Positions 30,223 through 58,769 of a DNA stretch of 64,000 nucleotides are shown here, piece by piece (position 1 is the first letter of the stretch; every line of letters begins with the position of its first letter). Origin of the DNA: a bacterium (GTDB lineage Bacteria; Zhuqueibacterota; Zhuqueibacteria; Residuimicrobiales; Krinioviventaceae); the NCBI GenBank assembly GCA_029561455.1, contig JAKQIY010000030.1, positions 62,001 to 126,000 of the forward strand. Reading direction: 5' to 3'. Below the pieces are notes generated by a model. It had not been told where the DNA came from and searched no databases. It was given only the letters and a program-made list of their open reading frames with translations. The position numbers and the translations under genes were made by a program.

Positions 30223-31896
30223 TTACCTTACCAGCACCAGTTTTTTATCCAGTGTCAGATTATTGGCTTTAAGGCGATATAAATAGACGCCGCTGGCTAC
30301 TTTATTGCCGCTGTTGTCCAATGTGTCCCAGGTTACCTGGTGCGCGCCGGCAGTGTATTCCATGGCGCCCAGTTCCCGCACCAACCGCCCTTGCAGATCA
30401 AATATCTGGATCGCGGCGCGGGAACGCTCCGGCAGGTAGAACTCGATGGTGGTGGAGGGATTGAATGGATTGGGATAATTCTGGCCCAGTTGGAAAGCAA
30501 CCGGCTGTGATTGTCCAGCTTGTTGTTCAACCGCTGTTTGGGAGTAATCGACCACCAGGGTATCCGAGATGATTTCCATGCCGTCTTTAAAGCTGGCAAC
30601 GTAGAACAGGCAGGGAGCGTCGAATTTAACGCTGGTGCGATGGGAGGTATAGGCGCCGCCGCGATAACCGGAAATCGGGTTGTATTGTTCATCGGTCTGA
30701 TATTTTTTGTACAGTTTTATGCATTCACCTTCGTTGGTGGTGCGAATAAAGTTGACATCGACCTGCACATTGGTTTTGTATTTTTTAAATTCCGCCCAGT
30801 CCAGGATAGGAGCATGCAGGCCGCCGTTGGCTTGCAATATTTTGAATTCGCGCAGGTAGAACTGGTCGTCGCTTGCGGCCGCGCCGGTAAAGGTAAAACG
30901 AACATATTCGGCTTGTACAGGAGCAATTTTATCGATGCCGAATTTACTGGTATCGGTACGGGCGGTTTGATCGACTACCGTAGTCCAGACGCTGGAATCC
31001 GATGAAACTTCGATGGTATATTGGTAGCCCTTGCCGCCAACATCGAAAAAGCTCTGGAACATGTCGATTTCGGTCGGCTGGCCCAGGTCGATGATCGCCC
31101 AAAGGGGTAGACCGTTATCGCCCCAGAGAGTATTATAGTTACCATCATTTAATTCGAGGCCAAAATAACCAACAACATTGCCTGTTCCCGAAGGACCGCC
31201 CATTGTAACCACCTTGTTCAACGCCACGTTCACATCCTGAACCTGACGCAGTTCATTGCCGGTAAATTCTTTATAAAGGATTTGCGCCATCAAAGTATGA
31301 CCGTCAACATTGGGGTGAATGCAATCCGGGAACAGATCGGCTCTGCTGAGCAGCGGAGTATAGAAATCGACCTTGTGGGCGCCGGTTTCCGCCAGCATGG
31401 TATCGACCATGGGGATAATATCGGCGGTAATAACTGAATCCCGAATGTCGAAATTGACGCAAAACGCCGGCGGGGGGTAGGAAAGGAAAAATTGTGGTTC
31501 TTTATCGCCCTGGGAAAAAGTATCGATCATGGCGCGATAATCGTCCAGGTATTCGTCCTTATAGATCCAGTTATAGGGTTTGGTGTCGTTCGTGCCCAGC
31601 AGTATGATGACGATATCGGCATCGAGCGCCAGGGCGTCTTTGAAAAACTGTTCATTCCAGATCGGGTAATCGCCATGTCTCAGCATAGTCCGGCCCGAAA
31701 CGCCAAAGTTGTGTACATCATAAAGCGGTCCCAGAAAAGCGCCTAATTGTCCGGGATAGCTGTCCGTTGCCGGGTTGTTTATTCCGGCGCCGATGGTAAT
31801 ACTGTTGCCGATGACAGCAACCTTGAGAGTATCGCCGGGTTCGGCATACAGGCACGATACCAGTAATAAAACAAGCAAAAACAGGGTTCTTTTCAT
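30223..31896 (-). CDS. Secreted SGNH/GDSL esterase with discoidin-like domain and T9SS sorting domain
   Basis: A signal peptide (about 1-18; LVSC within it also resembles a lipobox) leads to an SGNH hydrolase domain at about 22-215: VIGNSIT with Ser32, GVSGRT, LLGTNDT and the C-terminal DCIHPNVDGH with the Asp-His pair. All four blocks are intact. A coagulation-factor-5/8-type domain follows (about 225-360), suggesting carbohydrate binding. The end (about 470-557) is a sorting module with LGQNYPNPFNPST, IFDLQGRLVREL, WDTLDNSGNKVASGVYLYRL and KKLVLVR. That module marks cargo for the type IX secretion system. The likely role is deacetylation of polysaccharide outside the cell. Confidence 0.87.
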   Translation of the reverse strand: MKRTLFLLVLLLVSCLYAEPGDTLKVAVIGNSITIGAGINNPATDSYPGQLGAFLGPLYDVHNFGVSGRTMLRHGDYPIWNEQFFKDALALDADIVIILLGTNDTKPYNWIYKDEYLDDYRAMIDTFSQGDKEPQFFLSYPPPAFCVNFDIRDSVITADIIPMVDTMLAETGAHKVDFYTPLLSRADLFPDCIHPNVDGHTLMAQILYKEFTGNELRQVQDVNVALNKVVTMGGPSGTGNVVGYFGLELNDGNYNTLWGDNGLPLWAIIDLGQPTEIDMFQSFFDVGGKGYQYTIEVSSDSSVWTTVVDQTARTDTSKFGIDKIAPVQAEYVRFTFTGAAASDDQFYLREFKILQANGGLHAPILDWAEFKKYKTNVQVDVNFIRTTNEGECIKLYKKYQTDEQYNPISGYRGGAYTSHRTSVKFDAPCLFYVASFKDGMEIISDTLVVDYSQTAVEQQAGQSQPVAFQLGQNYPNPFNPSTTIEFYLPERSRAAIQIFDLQGRLVRELGAMEYTAGAHQVTWDTLDNSGNKVASGVYLYRLKANNLTLDKKLVLVR

Positions 31897-51943: not shown

Positions 51944-52576
51944 TCATTTAAAATAATAATGCACGCCGCCTTGCGGTATATACATGTTGATATTCCCATC
52001 GCTGCCGTAACTGAGCGGCCATTCCAGGGAAAGGCGGATATTATCGGTCAGCCGGTATTCAAAGCCCAGGCCGGCGCCGACATGGAAGGTATTCTCTTTA
52101 TCATTGGTCACCCTTTTTTCACCATGCGGACCATAATGATAGGTATCCTCATCGACCGGAGAATATTTATAGTCCTGTTCATATTCTTCCTGGTCGGAGT
52201 AGTAATTGCTAACCCCGGCCATGACATAAAACAGGGATTTGCCGGAACGGTGCAATGGCTTGAATAAGGTAATGCCGACATTCGCCCAGGTCTCTCGGCC
52301 GCTGCGGTATTCGGTGCTGATCATGTTCGGATCAGGCATCCAACTGCCGTCATATACCGTGTATGAATACCCTTCTGAGAATTCATCATCGTTTTTAAAG
52401 GATAATACGCCAAAGTTAATTTGCCAGCCCCAGTTATCCTGCATTTGCCGGTACGAAAATCCAGAACCGGAGATCATACCGCCGAAAAAACCCAGCGCCT
52501 GTGATAATTCTTTTTCCTGGGAATAGGCCTGAACTGCGGCGATAACTATTAAAAGAAATATGATTGTCTTTTTCAT
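51944..52576 (-). CDS. Outer-membrane beta-barrel protein, 210 residues
   Basis: A signal peptide (about 1-19, ending YSQ) is followed by amphipathic beta strands (FFGGMISGSGFSYRQ, NWGWQINFGVLSF, ETWANVGITLFKPL, SLFYVMAGVSNYY, TFHVGAGLGFEYRL, IRLSLEWPLSY). The pattern is of a small OmpA- or OmpW-like barrel. The loops are rich in Asp and Tyr. No ligand can be inferred. It lies 66 bases after the TPR gene, in the same direction, so it may be read with the three-gene operon above it. Confidence 0.65.
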   Translation of the reverse strand: MKKTIIFLLIVIAAVQAYSQEKELSQALGFFGGMISGSGFSYRQMQDNWGWQINFGVLSFKNDDEFSEGYSYTVYDGSWMPDPNMISTEYRSGRETWANVGITLFKPLHRSGKSLFYVMAGVSNYYSDQEEYEQDYKYSPVDEDTYHYGPHGEKRVTNDKENTFHVGAGLGFEYRLTDNIRLSLEWPLSYGSDGNINMYIPQGGVHYYFK

Positions 52577-52642: not shown

Positions 52643-53803
52643 TTATAATTTATGTTTTATTACAGTAACTAACGAATCTGCTCTGGCAATTATTTGTTTA
52701 TCTTCATTCGGGTTTTTTGTGGCAATTTGTAAATAATCCCGAAATACAGTTAATGCCATTTCATATTCTTTTTTGCTATAATAACAAATACCAAGATTAT
52801 AAAGCGCTTCCGAGCACCCAGGATTCATTTTAGTGGTTTTTTGATAGAAATTGATTGCATTATCAATATCACCTTTTTCATACCAAATAACACCTAACAT
52901 ATTCAGAGCCCGCCACATATTGGAATCAAGTTCCACTGCTTTGTTAAATGCTAACATTGCCTCACTATTTTTATTTTGCAATAATAAAGCCTGCCCAAGG
53001 GTATAATGATTTTGAGCAAGATTTGGTTGCGCCTGAATTGCTATCCCCAGTTTTTCCACAGCAGCAGCAAACTGTTTTTCTTCCATTAGAAGGATACCAA
53101 ATGTACGGTTTAAATCGCCATTATTGGGATCAAGACCAACCGCTTCTTCAAGTGACAAACGCGCCTCCCGTCTTCCTTCCGGACTACTTGAACCACCCTG
53201 TAAAACCGAGCCAGTACTACCGGCCAAAGCAATCCAGGCTTTGGTTGTCAACTCATTAACTCTACTTTGTGTAAAAGCATCACTTCTTTCGCGGGATATT
53301 TTGCTTATTTCGACTTCATCTTTAGCTCTGCTCAACTCCTGGGATAACCGATCAAGTTTTTCATTTAGCATGTTATTCTGTATTTTTAATTGGATTATTT
53401 CGTCCCTAACTCCTTTATTTTGCATAACAGCGTTTAACTTTTTTCCTACGTCATCAGTATCAATTAATACAGCAGCATCAACATTGATAAAAATTTGGTT
53501 GTTATTGATCGTATAATACACGTTCTCATATAATACTGTAATTATTGCAGCACTTATCGTTTCAATAATATCGCTTTCGACCGTACCATCGACAACCTTT
53601 ACTTCACTTTTGATAAATAAACCGGCCTGATCGGTAGCATTACGCCTGGCGCCTTCCCTGGCAAATTTTTTTGCATTATATAGTGTTTCATTTTCACCAA
53701 ATGCACTTGAATAATTACCGATAAATTTTTTTTGCTCCGCGAATCCTTGTTCGCATATTACAAACAAAAAAAATGTGCATAGTAATGTTCTAATAAATGG
53801 CAT
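52643..53803 (-). CDS. TPR-repeat periplasmic protein with FlgT/LPP20-like N-terminus
   Basis: The start is ATG 53803 with GAGG just upstream. An earlier ATG at 53815 overlaps the previous stop by four bases (ATGA). A signal peptide (ending GFAE) leads to an N-terminal alpha-beta domain (about 25-125: NAKKFAREGARRNATDQAGLFI, VINVDAAVLI pattern) like FlgT/LPP20-type domains. A coiled coil follows (130-175), then four to five TPRs (185-375: PNLAQNHYTLGQALLLQNKNSEA, ALNMLGVIWYEKGD, YNLGICYYSKKEYEMAL). It is the last of a three-gene operon with OmpA-domain proteins. A scaffold role at the outer membrane is inferred. Confidence 0.78.
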   Translation of the reverse strand: MPFIRTLLCTFFLFVICEQGFAEQKKFIGNYSSAFGENETLYNAKKFAREGARRNATDQAGLFIKSEVKVVDGTVESDIIETISAAIITVLYENVYYTINNNQIFINVDAAVLIDTDDVGKKLNAVMQNKGVRDEIIQLKIQNNMLNEKLDRLSQELSRAKDEVEISKISRERSDAFTQSRVNELTTKAWIALAGSTGSVLQGGSSSPEGRREARLSLEEAVGLDPNNGDLNRTFGILLMEEKQFAAAVEKLGIAIQAQPNLAQNHYTLGQALLLQNKNSEAMLAFNKAVELDSNMWRALNMLGVIWYEKGDIDNAINFYQKTTKMNPGCSEALYNLGICYYSKKEYEMALTVFRDYLQIATKNPNEDKQIIARADSLVTVIKHKL

Positions 53804-53811
53804 GGTACACC

Positions 53812-55857
53812 TCATTTATATAATTCAGCAAGTGGGACTGCCAAGAGTTCTGTTCTACGATTTAGTTGTCGACCCTCTTCCGTATCATTAGTGGCAACAG
53901 GTTTGCTTTCACCATATCCTTCGGATATTAACCTGTAAACCGGTATTCCTTTGTTAATCCAGTAATCCTTTACTACTTTTGCTCTATTTGCAGACAGGAC
54001 AGAATTATATTCATCCGTTCCAATATTGTCTGTATGCCCCATTATTTTAAATCCATATTCCGGGTACTTTTGTAAAACATCCTGGAATAGACGATCCAGT
54101 ACACTGAATGATTCGTTTTTTAAATCAGTCGCATTGGTTTCAAAATAAATTGTATTAACACCATAAGCAATTTTTTCTTCAACTGTTTTAGTAAATAGTT
54201 TAAGATGGAAACTCCATTCTACTATCGTTTCGGTCGCTTCTCCTGACTCCTTTAAAGGATTTTCGAACCAATCTGGCCAGAATCCTTCACATGAGGCACT
54301 GAGCCGGTATTCGTCATCGGCCGGTACTTCGGCAATATACTGTCCGGTTTCATAATTTGTATAAACAACTGCTACAATTTTCCCGGTCGTTTTACTTTCT
54401 ACTGATATTGCGACGCCGCCAAGCGGTTTTTGTATATAATAATCAAAAGCGATACCCTTGATTATCATTTTTTTGATAGCCGGGTACAATTGCACATTTT
54501 TACTTAAATTTTGTAATGGCAATGTTTTGCGCAAATCAAAAGATTCTTCATATTTTATATATTCCGGTGAAGAAATTTGCAGGTTATAAATTTTTCCTAT
54601 TTGTAATACCACCAGGTATTCGCCATTAATTATACTTGTTTTAGTATTAACAAGGGCTTGTGAATCCCGCAAATCAGTTAGAATAATATCGGCCAGAACC
54701 GGATTGCCGGTTTTCGCGTCCGTTATACTTCCTTTTACAAATGCTGTCCATGAGGGTTTTAATGAATCGGGCACTTCTATTTTATACAAATTAACGCTTT
54801 GATCAGTTGGTGTATCCGACTTTCTGGCAAAGTAAGCATTTTCCCCCTTGAAGTCTATGGTATACTGATAATCATTCCCGGAATTATTAATATATGGTCC
54901 TAAATTTTTAGGTTCAGTCCATTTTCCATTTATCTTTTGTGACATATAAACATCATAACCACCGCATCCCCCAGGTTTATCCGAACTGAAATATAGTGTA
55001 ACACCGTCATAATGCAAGAATGGGGTTATTTCGTCATATTTTGAATTAATAACCGTACCCAAATTTTCCACGCTGATCCAGTTCATGTTTTTATCGCGGT
55101 TTGCCATCCATATATCGCGGTTCCCATATCCATCTCTGCGATTGGATGAAAAGAACAATTGTTTACCATCAGCGGATATTGAAGGGTGACTATCCCACCC
55201 GGAACTATTGATGATGTTGATTGATTTTGGAGCAGACCAATCCAAGCCCTGCATTTCCGCCTGAAAAATATCCAGTCCGCCATATTCGGTTACTCTGGAG
55301 AAGAAAATTTCCCGGAAATCTGGCGTTATGGTTGCCGCCCCATCGTTATTGCTGGTATTAATGTTTGGACCTAAATTGGTTACTACAGTCCACTTGCCGT
55401 TGATTTGCCGGCACATCCAGAAATCTTCGGAATTATTAATACTGCCCGGCCGGTCGGATGTGAAAATCATCATGCTACCATCTGGACTGATCACCGGGAA
55501 ACCTTCACTATATATGGTGTTAATCGGTTCTTCCAGCTTTTCTGCAAATTTTCGTTGCTGTGTAGATATTGTGTTTTTATTTAGAACATGTTGTTCATAA
55601 TAAGCAATTTTTTCATTGAGGCCCTTGAGTTCAGGATTATGTCGTTTGGCAATTTCTAGTGTAGCTAATATTGTTAATGGATCTGCATTTTCCATTTCCA
55701 GTTGTTGAGCTTTAACATAATAGAAATTAGCTTTTTTTTGTGCGGATGAAGCGCATCCTGAGATGACCATTGAAATCAATATTAAAAGACCAATTGCATC
55801 TAGTCTTAAAAATAAATTATTGTTTTTAGTGTTCAACTCTTTTTTTCCCTTTAACAT
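53812..55857 (-). CDS. PorE-like lipoprotein: helical repeat, PD40 propeller, carboxypeptidase-regulatory-like and OmpA domains
   Basis: This 681-residue lipoprotein (lipobox VISGC) has the domain order of PorE of the type IX secretion system: a short TPR-like helical part (about 38-115), a PD40/WD40-like propeller (about 120-365: FPVISPDGSMMIFTSDR, HPSISADGKQLFFSSNRRDG, PFLHYDGVTLYFSSDKPGG), a CRD-like beta domain (370-540), and an OmpA peptidoglycan-binding domain (560-680: IYFETNATDL, KIMGHTDNIG, SANRAKVV, GYGESKP, NRRTELLA). The start is 2 bases after the upstream gene. The whole architecture, not a single motif, supports the call. The exact orthology to PorE is unproven. Confidence 0.8.
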   Translation of the reverse strand: MLKGKKELNTKNNNLFLRLDAIGLLILISMVISGCASSAQKKANFYYVKAQQLEMENADPLTILATLEIAKRHNPELKGLNEKIAYYEQHVLNKNTISTQQRKFAEKLEEPINTIYSEGFPVISPDGSMMIFTSDRPGSINNSEDFWMCRQINGKWTVVTNLGPNINTSNNDGAATITPDFREIFFSRVTEYGGLDIFQAEMQGLDWSAPKSINIINSSGWDSHPSISADGKQLFFSSNRRDGYGNRDIWMANRDKNMNWISVENLGTVINSKYDEITPFLHYDGVTLYFSSDKPGGCGGYDVYMSQKINGKWTEPKNLGPYINNSGNDYQYTIDFKGENAYFARKSDTPTDQSVNLYKIEVPDSLKPSWTAFVKGSITDAKTGNPVLADIILTDLRDSQALVNTKTSIINGEYLVVLQIGKIYNLQISSPEYIKYEESFDLRKTLPLQNLSKNVQLYPAIKKMIIKGIAFDYYIQKPLGGVAISVESKTTGKIVAVVYTNYETGQYIAEVPADDEYRLSASCEGFWPDWFENPLKESGEATETIVEWSFHLKLFTKTVEEKIAYGVNTIYFETNATDLKNESFSVLDRLFQDVLQKYPEYGFKIMGHTDNIGTDEYNSVLSANRAKVVKDYWINKGIPVYRLISEGYGESKPVATNDTEEGRQLNRRTELLAVPLAELYK

Positions 55858-55859
55858 TG

Positions 55860-57338
55860 TCAGTTTTTTCTTTGTATGACAATATCAATTCTGTTATTTA
55901 ATATTTTTCCTTCTTTGTTATCCGGGGCAATAGGCTTGCTGTTACCAAAACCGATTGCAATATAATCCTGAATATTTCTGCCGTCCGCTGTCAGATAGTC
56001 CCGTATCGCATTGGCTTTTTCCTGTGAATTAGATTTATTGATCTCTGCCTTACTATCCAAAGTTGCATGCCCTTCAATAGTAAAAAGGCAATTATTAAGA
56101 TTTTTTAAAGCTTTGCTAATTTTTGTCAAAGCTGCAAAATATTTTGGATTGGGATAATTTTGTTTTTCAATAAAAACTTTACCAGGTAAGCGTAATATGA
56201 TTTTTTCTTTATCATAATAGGAAATTATATCAGTACTATCCAAAGCGTTTTGAATTGGCACAATGTCAGAAGCAAGAGAACCAATTTTTCGAAAAGTCAT
56301 TGTCAGACTATCCTGAACAACAGTTAAATGGTTAATATGATTTTTATATTGGGTATTATTAGTTTGTAATTCCAATATTTGTTTATCTTTTTCAGCCAAA
56401 GCATATTCAAAATTTTGATATTTTTTCTTTTCTTCATCGATCTGGTTCAGTAAACTGTTAACTGCGTTGTCTTTGCCTTTACTGCAATCCAGGGTAAAAT
56501 CAAATTTTGATGCAATTTGTTGCAGCGTTGATTCTTCGTTGAGTCTCAGTTGTTCAAGAGTGTTCTTGTCGTCTTTTGTTTGAATTACACATTTATTAAT
56601 TTCAGAGGCATGCTCGATTTCCTGTAATGTGGTTTTTACAAGGGCAAGAAATTCGCCAGATTCTTTTTTGTCTTTATTCAACTGACTTTTAGTTTTTTGT
56701 AACATCATTTTTGTTTTTTGTAAACTGATTGGAGCATTGTTTTTTATTCCGGCCTTTTCAATTGCCTGGATTTTATTGTCAATATCAATAATATATTTGT
56801 TGTTTAGAAAAGCAATAATTACCTGTTTAAATAGAGCATCCGCTTCCTGAATTGTTTTTAATGCTTCCTCATTTCGTCCGTTTTCAAGACAAGTAATTGT
56901 TTTTTCAAATTTTTTTTCGGCTTTTTCCCACCCTTTGCTATCAAAAGTTGAAGCGCCAATTGAATCGCCATAGGCCCTGGAAGTTAAATATTGATCATAA
57001 TTTGATTTCATCAATACCGCAGCGACCTGAGCTTTTTCAAAAAGGGATTGAACAAGATTGATATCTTTGAGAGGCAAACCTTGCGTTTTGTTTTTGTTAT
57101 CATTTATTTTTTTATAGAGTTCTTCACCAAGAGACATGTACTTTGTAGCATAGAACCCCGCCTGAGCCTGTTTTGCCGCCTGATATTTGATTTCGATACT
57201 ATCGAGTCTGGCCTGTAATTCTGGACCACTTATTAGCTCTTCTTTATCTGCAGCAGGTAATGAGGTGACAATGATCAATATAATTAACAATAAAAATAAA
57301 CTAAAGGTTAAATCCTTTCCAGCAAATTTTCGTAACAT
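55860..57338 (-). CDS. OmpA-domain protein with long coiled coil
   Basis: AAAGGAGG eight bases upstream fixes ATG 57338 (492 residues). A longer frame starts at 57374 without support. A signal peptide (about 1-31, ending SLPAA) is followed by helices and coiled coils (about 40-360). The end is an OmpA-type wall-binding domain (about 380-490: IILRLPGKVFIE, FTIEGHATLDS, KANAIRDYL, GFGNSKPIAPDNKEGK, NNRIDIVI), slightly divergent at the conserved Arg. It is the first gene of the operon with the PorE-like lipoprotein and the TPR protein. It may form a spacer between wall and outer membrane. Confidence 0.82.
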   Translation of the reverse strand: MLRKFAGKDLTFSLFLLLIILIIVTSLPAADKEELISGPELQARLDSIEIKYQAAKQAQAGFYATKYMSLGEELYKKINDNKNKTQGLPLKDINLVQSLFEKAQVAAVLMKSNYDQYLTSRAYGDSIGASTFDSKGWEKAEKKFEKTITCLENGRNEEALKTIQEADALFKQVIIAFLNNKYIIDIDNKIQAIEKAGIKNNAPISLQKTKMMLQKTKSQLNKDKKESGEFLALVKTTLQEIEHASEINKCVIQTKDDKNTLEQLRLNEESTLQQIASKFDFTLDCSKGKDNAVNSLLNQIDEEKKKYQNFEYALAEKDKQILELQTNNTQYKNHINHLTVVQDSLTMTFRKIGSLASDIVPIQNALDSTDIISYYDKEKIILRLPGKVFIEKQNYPNPKYFAALTKISKALKNLNNCLFTIEGHATLDSKAEINKSNSQEKANAIRDYLTADGRNIQDYIAIGFGNSKPIAPDNKEGKILNNRIDIVIQRKN

Positions 57339-57770
57339 AATAATCTCCTCCTTTACATACCGGTGATAATGCAAATATTAATTTTGTGTTTACCAACGTT
57401 CTTTATTTCATTATTACAAATATCTGTATGAAATTTTCAGGAAATTAAAGACTCTTGTAACACCTAAATTAAAAAGATGAAACCTGAATATACAAAAAAT
57501 AGCGCATTACCAGGTGTTTAGGCGGATTTTCGGACCCCTGGAATCATTCTGCTTTTTACTATATAATATATTTTATATTTAATAAGCGTCTGATTTTTAA
57601 TTCATTCTTGGGAATAATGGCAGAGGGAATGAGATATTTTAAAGTATAAAAAAAAAATTATAAAGTCAATATGTTGTTAAATTTTTTATTGAGAAAAATT
57701 AAGTATTATTTGAATTTATAAAATTGAAAGCAGATAATTTTGTCATCAAAATTATTTGCAGTCCTGTTCA
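57339..57770. other. AT-rich intergenic region between the operon and pyrC
   Basis: About 430 bases without a supported ORF. It should carry the promoter of the OmpA-domain operon, which reads leftward. No consensus -35/-10 pair stands out. pyrC reads toward this gap from the right. Confidence 0.5.
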
Positions 57771-58769
57771 TTACTGGTTTATCATTCGCCAGGGCAGTTC
57801 CTGACCTGCGGCAAAAGGCACTACATTGCCGTATTTGCCAGGTACCTGCCAGGGTTCTTTAACCAGGGTGATGATCTTTTCCGGCGGTGTGATCTTATAA
57901 ATGCGCTGTGCATTGCCGGAGATAAAATCCTGCAAATTATCCAGGGCGCCGTGCTGCTCGAACCAGCCGGTGAGCATGGGCAGCGCAAGCGGGGCGGTAA
58001 ACACGCCAGCGGCGCAACCGCTGCACTCTTTTTTATGTACCGGGTGCGGCGCGGAATCGCTGCCGAACATGACTTTGGGGTGGCCGCTTAAAGCCGCCTG
58101 CGCCAGGGCGTCGCGGTCCTCCGGGCGTTTAGCGATGGGTTTGCAGAACAGGTGCGGCGCCAGCAGTCCCCCGGCCACATCGTTCAGGGTGATGAGCAGG
58201 TGGTGCAGGGTTATAGTAGCGTACAGGTTTTCGTATTGATCCAGAAGTTCCACCGCGTCGCGGGTGGTGATATGCTCCATAATAATAGTCAGTTGCGGAT
58301 AAGCTTTGGCCAGTTGCGCATACACTTCCAGGAACTCTTTTTCGCGATCTAGCACAAAGCCGCTGGATTCGCCGTGCACCAGCAGGGGAATGTGCATCTC
58401 CTGCATCAGGGTCAAGGTGCTTTCAATATCGTGCAGGTTGGACACCCCGGCCTCGCTGTTGGTGGTGATGCCGGCGGGATAGAGTTTAACGCCGATAATA
58501 TCATCCTTCACTTCCGCCAGTTCCGCTTCGCTGTAATTGCGAAAGAACAGCGTCATCCAGGGGATGAACAGTTCGTCGCCGATGGCGTCATAAATGGCTT
58601 CGCGGTAGCGCACCAGTTTGTCGCGGCTATTCACCGGTTCCACCAGGTTGGGCATGACCACCGCCCCGGCAAAAGGCCGGGCGCTGAGCGGCGCGACCAG
58701 TTCCAGCATGTCGCCTTCGCGCAGGTGCAGGTGCATATCCAGGGGGGAGGAGAGGGTAAAGCGGGTCAT
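57771..58769 (-). CDS. pyrC: Dihydroorotase PyrC
   Basis: PyrC closes the ring of carbamoyl-aspartate to dihydroorotate in pyrimidine synthesis. The 332-residue protein is of the E. coli class II type. [10 protein letters not shown] near residue 11 gives two zinc histidines (H13, H15). VKLYPAG carries the carboxylated lysine near 94. LVHGES and IMEHITT carry further ligands. GSDSAPHP is the final metal Asp. All are intact. It is a single minus-strand gene. Confidence 0.95.

Follow-up and report, generated by a model that had tools for sequence, protein, structure and literature searches.

An unusual AT-rich three-gene envelope operon with a PorE-like lipoprotein

The closest described systems and the layout of the locus

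The closest described counterpart of the locus considered here is PorE of Porphyromonas gingivalis (PG1058), a lipoprotein in which a TPR region, a five-bladed propeller, a CRD and an OmpA domain follow one another. Its published description places the TPR at residues 25-149, the propeller from residue 167 and the peptidoglycan contacts at D576, N584 and R591 (PMC7192894), and a further report states that the barrel PorP is a binding partner of PorE in P. gingivalis and that in F. johnsoniae six porP-like genes adjoin porE-like genes (PMC9143113). A PD40 plus OmpA layout is also found in the CHU_0125 family of Cytophaga hutchinsonii. Regarding another gene of the operon, the reference is the SHS2 fold, which is common to FlgP, FlgT and Lpp20, ring formation accompanying an insert after the helix (PMC12222027).

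The locus lies in a stretch of 64,000 nucleotides from a Krinioviventaceae genome (GCA_029561455.1, contig JAKQIY010000030.1, positions 62,001 to 126,000), hereafter called the window. Its open reading frames, their common strand and their spacing all confirm that three envelope genes form an operon, as the original prediction had it:

57375..57770, minus strand: leader of the operon, AT-rich with a GC of 0.247, bordered upstream by pyrC
57338-55860, minus strand: gene A (492 aa), coiled-coil protein with an OmpA-fold domain
55858..55859, minus strand: 2-base gap between A and B
55857-53812, minus strand: gene B (681 aa), PorE-like protein
53804..53811, minus strand: 8-base gap between the B stop and the favoured C start, within a ribosome-binding-like GAGGTG stretch
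53803-52643, minus strand (alternative start 53815): gene C (386 aa), SHS2-type and TPR protein
51944..52576, minus strand: gene D, predicted beta-barrel of the outer membrane (OMP_b-brl), 66 bases past the end of C

For C, the ATG at 53803, 8 bases past the B stop, is favoured over the start at 53815, which would give a 4-base overlap with this stop, because GAGGTG lies immediately upstream; likewise, the ATG at 57338 is favoured as the start of A because GGAGG stands 8 bases ahead of it. The long frames and strong domain matches exclude chance reading frames for all three genes.

In base composition, the three genes stand apart from their surroundings. With GC3 values of 0.281 (A), 0.286 (C) and 0.327 (B), they rank lowest of all 46 ORFs in the window that reach 150 aa (mean 0.495, sd 0.080); their overall GC values are likewise the three lowest. 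pyrC, the gene upstream of the leader, has a GC3 of 0.712, and D, at 0.540, is ordinary for the window. Because this low-GC block comprises exactly A, B and C, a common history of the three is suggested, with D outside it. A-B-C is probably an acquired or lineage-specific module and D, which resembles PorG weakly (E 0.007), probably does not belong to it; as a candidate fourth gene of the operon, D is disfavoured by its base composition. Look-ups of plasmids with B and C returned distant matches only, all below 60% identity, viral contigs searched with B gave no match, and the tRNAs are far from the operon. An imperfect 19-base direct repeat flanks A-B-C (52164-52182 and 57753-57771), one copy being within D; it was taken as likely chance rather than as the scar of a mobile element.

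We consider it about an even bet (probability near 0.5) that A, B and C act as one outer-membrane and periplasmic assembly, in which B would be the wall tether, C an oligomeric scaffold and A a modified OmpA-fold protein.

Gene B, its relatives and a possible barrel partner

In the sequence of B, a lipobox (ISGC) is read, giving the protein a lipoprotein signal; lipidation is expected at Cys35. Pfam models matched by the protein are PD40 (three times), CarboxypepD_reg and OmpA, and its predicted structure (AlphaFold2, 85 alignment rows) reaches a mean pLDDT of 86.9. A short N-terminal helical region, with one TPR-like element, leaves 109 residues ahead of a propeller of five blades (about 118-361), followed by CRD1 (about 371-457), an extra CRD2 (about 460-557) and the OmpA domain (566-675), the blades and CRDs being read from the predicted strand list. 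The PorE domain order (TPR, propeller, CRD, OmpA) previously proposed for B is borne out. The three peptidoglycan-contact residues known from PorE are all intact (D610, N618 and R625), and wall binding by the OmpA domain of B is likely. In Foldseek searches, TolB was closest to the propeller among solved structures, and the C-terminus matched OmpA, Pal and the OmpA domain of PorE (6top). TolB, whose propeller is six-bladed, and Pal thus resemble the two ends of B, but B is a single lipoprotein in which CRDs separate these two parts.

B differs from PorE by a shortened TPR region, a second CRD and different operon partners. Ahead of the propeller, its 109 residues compare with about 150-230 in most Bacteroidota rows, and CRD2 is occupied in just 2 of the 84 other aligned rows (the protein of genome G023 and one of three genes of locus L086). 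Against the PorE model (NF052230), B scored 208.2 bits for a cut-off of 600, making it only the second-best NCBIfam match; the best was the CHU_0125 model (NF053607), at 220 bits, again far under the cut-off of 620. Judged by the curated cut-off, B is PorE-like but not PorE. The reading of B as a plain PorE orthologue was rejected in view of the score, the second CRD and the lack of PorE-level matches in the class.

Among 82 genomes of the phylum, the best relative of B was found in G043 (41% identity over residues 104-679, and 40% over the propeller-CRD-CRD-OmpA part), followed by the one of G023 (34% over the latter part):

L177:8680-11544: double-CRD relative of B in G043, 954 aa
L051:9433-12261: double-CRD relative of B in G023, 942 aa

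Both proteins align to B over the propeller, the two CRDs and the OmpA domain with few gaps, yet their N-terminus is longer by about 300 residues where B has its lipobox. Unlike B, they adjoin CHAT, TPR and CHASE2 genes and are devoid of A- or C-type neighbours. The first 300 residues of the G043 protein are weakly PorV/PorQ-like (NF033709, E 7e-6, 25.8 of 90 bits, under the cut-off) and the N-terminus of the G023 protein gave no family match. Set against the lipobox of B, the PorV/PorQ-like start in G043 indicates that the wall-binding part has seemingly been paired with different outer-membrane anchors.

A first tree of 85 rows, comprising 81 of the 83 listed B homologues (without L135 and L140), window B and three same-class proteins, placed B by itself at the tip of a long branch; for the family scan, this alignment was reduced to 62 of its rows. 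With the addition of G043, G066 and G063 (88 rows), B became sister to G043 (bootstrap 99, aLRT 85) in a clade of B, G043, G023 and G063 (99/94). An import of B from Bacteroidota was rejected in view of this grouping, and an origin within the phylum appears likelier.

Of separate interest, the neighbourhoods of the two relatives (L177:8680-18365 and L051:9433-19176) have in common TPR/CHAT and CHASE2 genes and the approximately 950-aa propeller-CRD-CRD-OmpA protein, CHAT being located on the TPR gene itself in G043 and on an ORF adjoining the TPR gene in G023. This arrangement possibly links an outer-membrane wall tether to CHASE2 signalling. A CHASE2 operon around B was considered and rejected, the single CHASE2 gene found in this genome sitting on another contig.

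These relatives bear on a first alternative, which we regard as tentative and on the unlikely side, namely that B is the wall tether of one particular outer-membrane barrel, either D or one encoded elsewhere, together with surface cargo, in the manner proposed for the porE-like genes that neighbour porP-like genes in Flavobacterium, A and C being accessory. Kin of B are indeed tied to barrels: besides the PorE-PorP complex and the porP-like and porE-like neighbours of F. johnsoniae described above (PMC9143113), there is the PorV/PorQ-like N-terminus of the G043 relative, near which a protein with a weak type IX sorting-tail match is encoded. D itself is a predicted barrel close behind C. However, the GC3 of D departs from the 0.28-0.33 of the three genes, its PorG resemblance is weak and the operon is devoid of a PorP-like gene.

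The partners A and C

Gene A encodes a protein with an N-terminal hydrophobic signal indicative of secretion, a long helical, coiled-coil region and a C-terminal OmpA-fold domain (residues 398-481) matching PF00691 with 41.5 bits, over the cut-off of 27.2. At the contact positions, it has T426, N434 and K441 where D, N and R are expected, two of the three being lost, while all three are kept in each of the 14 aligned full-length homologues (E at most 1e-12, start before residue 150 and end past residue 470 of A, frameshifted copies of genome G006 dropped). Long matches to A (start by residue 118, end past 480) are present in 26 of 40 genomes and include a second copy in this one. Identity between this second copy and the proteins of 13 aligned relatives is 33-69%, whereas A itself shows 21-25% identity to all 14 others in the alignment, which makes A a diverged paralogue. 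Since A is devoid of two of the three contact residues, the notion of two peptidoglycan anchors in the operon, as first put forward, is doubtful, and A is more likely a spacer or adaptor than a second wall anchor.

As a side observation, one locus of G006 (L055, C1:350001-370000) contains coiled-coil OmpA genes in duplicate, which frameshifts seem to have broken up, alongside several small genes of OmpA and barrel-like type. This cluster was discarded as a relative of the operon, as no propeller gene was seen there.

Gene C encodes a signal peptide, an SHS2-type domain of the FlgT_N/FlgP kind (about residues 25-115), a coiled coil (about 130-172) and TPR repeats (about 215-385). Its Pfam matches are to TPR; a direct match to FlgT_N was absent at E 0.05, and the N-domain was unmatched by any Pfam model. 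The N-domain does match L165, a protein of genome G048 (E 6e-10), which in turn matches FlgT_N (E 5e-6) with 27.3 bits, just under the cut-off of 28.8; a further protein, L063, reached 26.7 bits, also under it. Moreover, when 11 related N-domains were combined into a profile, it matched PDB entry 9hmf, chain C (E 5.4e-4, profile positions 38-117). This chain is annotated as a putative lipoprotein only and we read it as FlgP, the entry being a model of the Campylobacter motor periplasmic scaffold (PMC12222027).

The resemblance of the N-domain of C to the FlgT N-domain, FlgP and Lpp20 accordingly goes through transitive homology and a profile match: the FlgT-like start attributed to C stands by this route but not by a direct Pfam match. 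The predicted structure of C (AlphaFold2) is weak, with a mean pLDDT of 65.1, although the TPRs are confident; short strands (68-71 and 74-78) are predicted after the helix, at the place of the hairpin insert that goes with ring formation, but pLDDT is below 50 at 63-86. In a fold search with C, the 50 matches listed were all of TPR type and none fell on the N-domain. C differs from FlgT and FlgP by the added coiled coil and TPR, and no flagellar locus was seen around it.

Proteins combining SHS2, a coil and TPR also occur in G048 and G052 and at four further loci (L194, L195, L196 and L197), which come from four of the 9 genomes, out of 395, matched by the SHS2 profile. Together, L194-L197, L165 and L169 point to an apparently unnamed SHS2 (FlgT/FlgP-type)-coiled coil-TPR family scattered over two phyla.

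Type IX secretion, co-occurrence and the operon as an assembly

B had been likened to PorE, which couples the type IX apparatus to the wall. SprA is matched in all 40 genomes searched (at least 39 over the cut-off), this one included, and at least 150 Por_Secre_tail sorting-tail matches over the cut-off were counted here, with 150 of 303 candidates scored. The genome thus has type IX genes, as that proposal presupposes; it was also right in that the partners flanking B are not standard type IX genes. In contrast, among the matches listed, PorE was over the cut-off in none of the 40 genomes, this one included, and GldN (PorN), a ring component, was not found in any of 20 genomes searched, among them this one. 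When the GldN search was repeated on this genome and seven added ones, it was found in five of the seven but not here. A propeller and an OmpA domain in one frame were seen in at least 4 of the 40 genomes (G000, which is this genome, G023, G024 and G029). Such a small number of B-like proteins among SprA-bearing genomes argues against counting B-like proteins among the regular components of type IX secretion in this class. Elsewhere in the window (30223-31896), a GDSL lipase with an F5/8 type C domain bears a type IX sorting tail.

It is therefore unlikely that this bacterium has its PorE in B and that B, with A and C, fastens the type IX apparatus onto the wall via two OmpA anchors. The domain order, the rank of PorE as second-best NCBIfam match, the intact peptidoglycan triad of B and the SprA and sorting tails of the genome all speak for this reading. 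Against it weigh the scores of B under both curated models, the lack of PorE over the cut-off in genomes nearly all bearing SprA, the few genomes with a propeller and OmpA in one frame, the failure to find GldN in 20 genomes when five of seven controls had it, and the two contact residues gone from A. Of the earlier proposal, the domain order hence stands and the membership in PorE does not. A type IX role of the operon is conceivable but is not favoured.

The trio was found together in no other genome or locus examined, contrary to the co-location in relatives that had been anticipated. Around A homologues, 15 loci (L039-L050 and L053-L055) showed no adjoining C-type or propeller-type B gene, and the B matches in them are explained by the OmpA domain. 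In the best 80 of 562 stretches around B homologues, C was matched outside B-like proteins solely through its TPR part, and matches of separate genes to A did not extend past the OmpA domain. Six same-phylum B loci (L051, L052, L070 and L177-L179) were without an A- or C-type neighbour, apart from a distant TPR match in L051, and no B homologue was seen in the loci examined around C relatives. No published description of the trio was found in the literature searched, whose coverage leaves out most subscription journals. As the trio was not seen elsewhere, a conserved neighbourhood gives no support to a complex.

That A, B and C are independent envelope proteins, merely carried together on an acquired AT-rich segment, would fit with this isolation of the trio, with the separate relatives that each has elsewhere and with a low GC3 confined to exactly these genes, but we judge it quite improbable, since the 2- and 8-base spacing and the one common leader imply co-expression and all three are scaffold-type proteins of the envelope.

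In the preferred reading, a single assembly of A, B and C, B would be an outer-membrane lipoprotein gripping the wall through its OmpA domain, with the propeller and two CRDs serving as a binding platform, PorE-like in its working without being PorE, and the partner that it holds would be an outer-membrane barrel or surface protein. C would be a periplasmic scaffold, probably oligomerising via the coiled coil and an SHS2 domain of the FlgP/FlgT type while presenting its TPRs. A, a coiled-coil OmpA-fold protein with a decayed wall-binding site, would act as spacer or adaptor. Formation of a complex, and co-translation of its members in matched amounts, are inferred. A more elaborate version, in which C would assemble beneath the outer membrane into a FlgP/FlgT-like ring or disk of SHS2 domains, pinned to the wall by B and, in a bacterium where GldN was not found, standing in for the PorK/PorN ring plus PorE of Bacteroidota, with A as a former anchor turned into a spacer between ring and tether, is a long shot.

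Overall, the operon represents an unusual variation on PorE-like tethers. As SprA-bearing relatives are mostly without a B-like protein and the closest kin of B have an extra N-terminus, PorV-like in one instance, replacing the lipid anchor, the PorE-type architecture may be a toolkit reaching beyond type IX secretion. Should A, B and C indeed make up a single assembly, a wall tether would there be coupled with a ring-type domain in a new way, and A would clearly exemplify the loss of the wall site from an OmpA domain.

A more distant parallel is a gene pair that recurs in nine loci of Bacteroidota (L079, L080, L084, L085, L088, L096, L134, L142 and L146), where a gene for 339-367 aa, coding for a TPR protein where it was read, stands directly before a PorE-like gene. 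In these pairs, unlike B and C, the TPR proteins are without an SHS2 match and the gene order is reversed. In 21 of the PorE-like loci (e.g., L087, L092 and L101), the PorE-like gene follows a gene of about 210 aa, which resembles queE.
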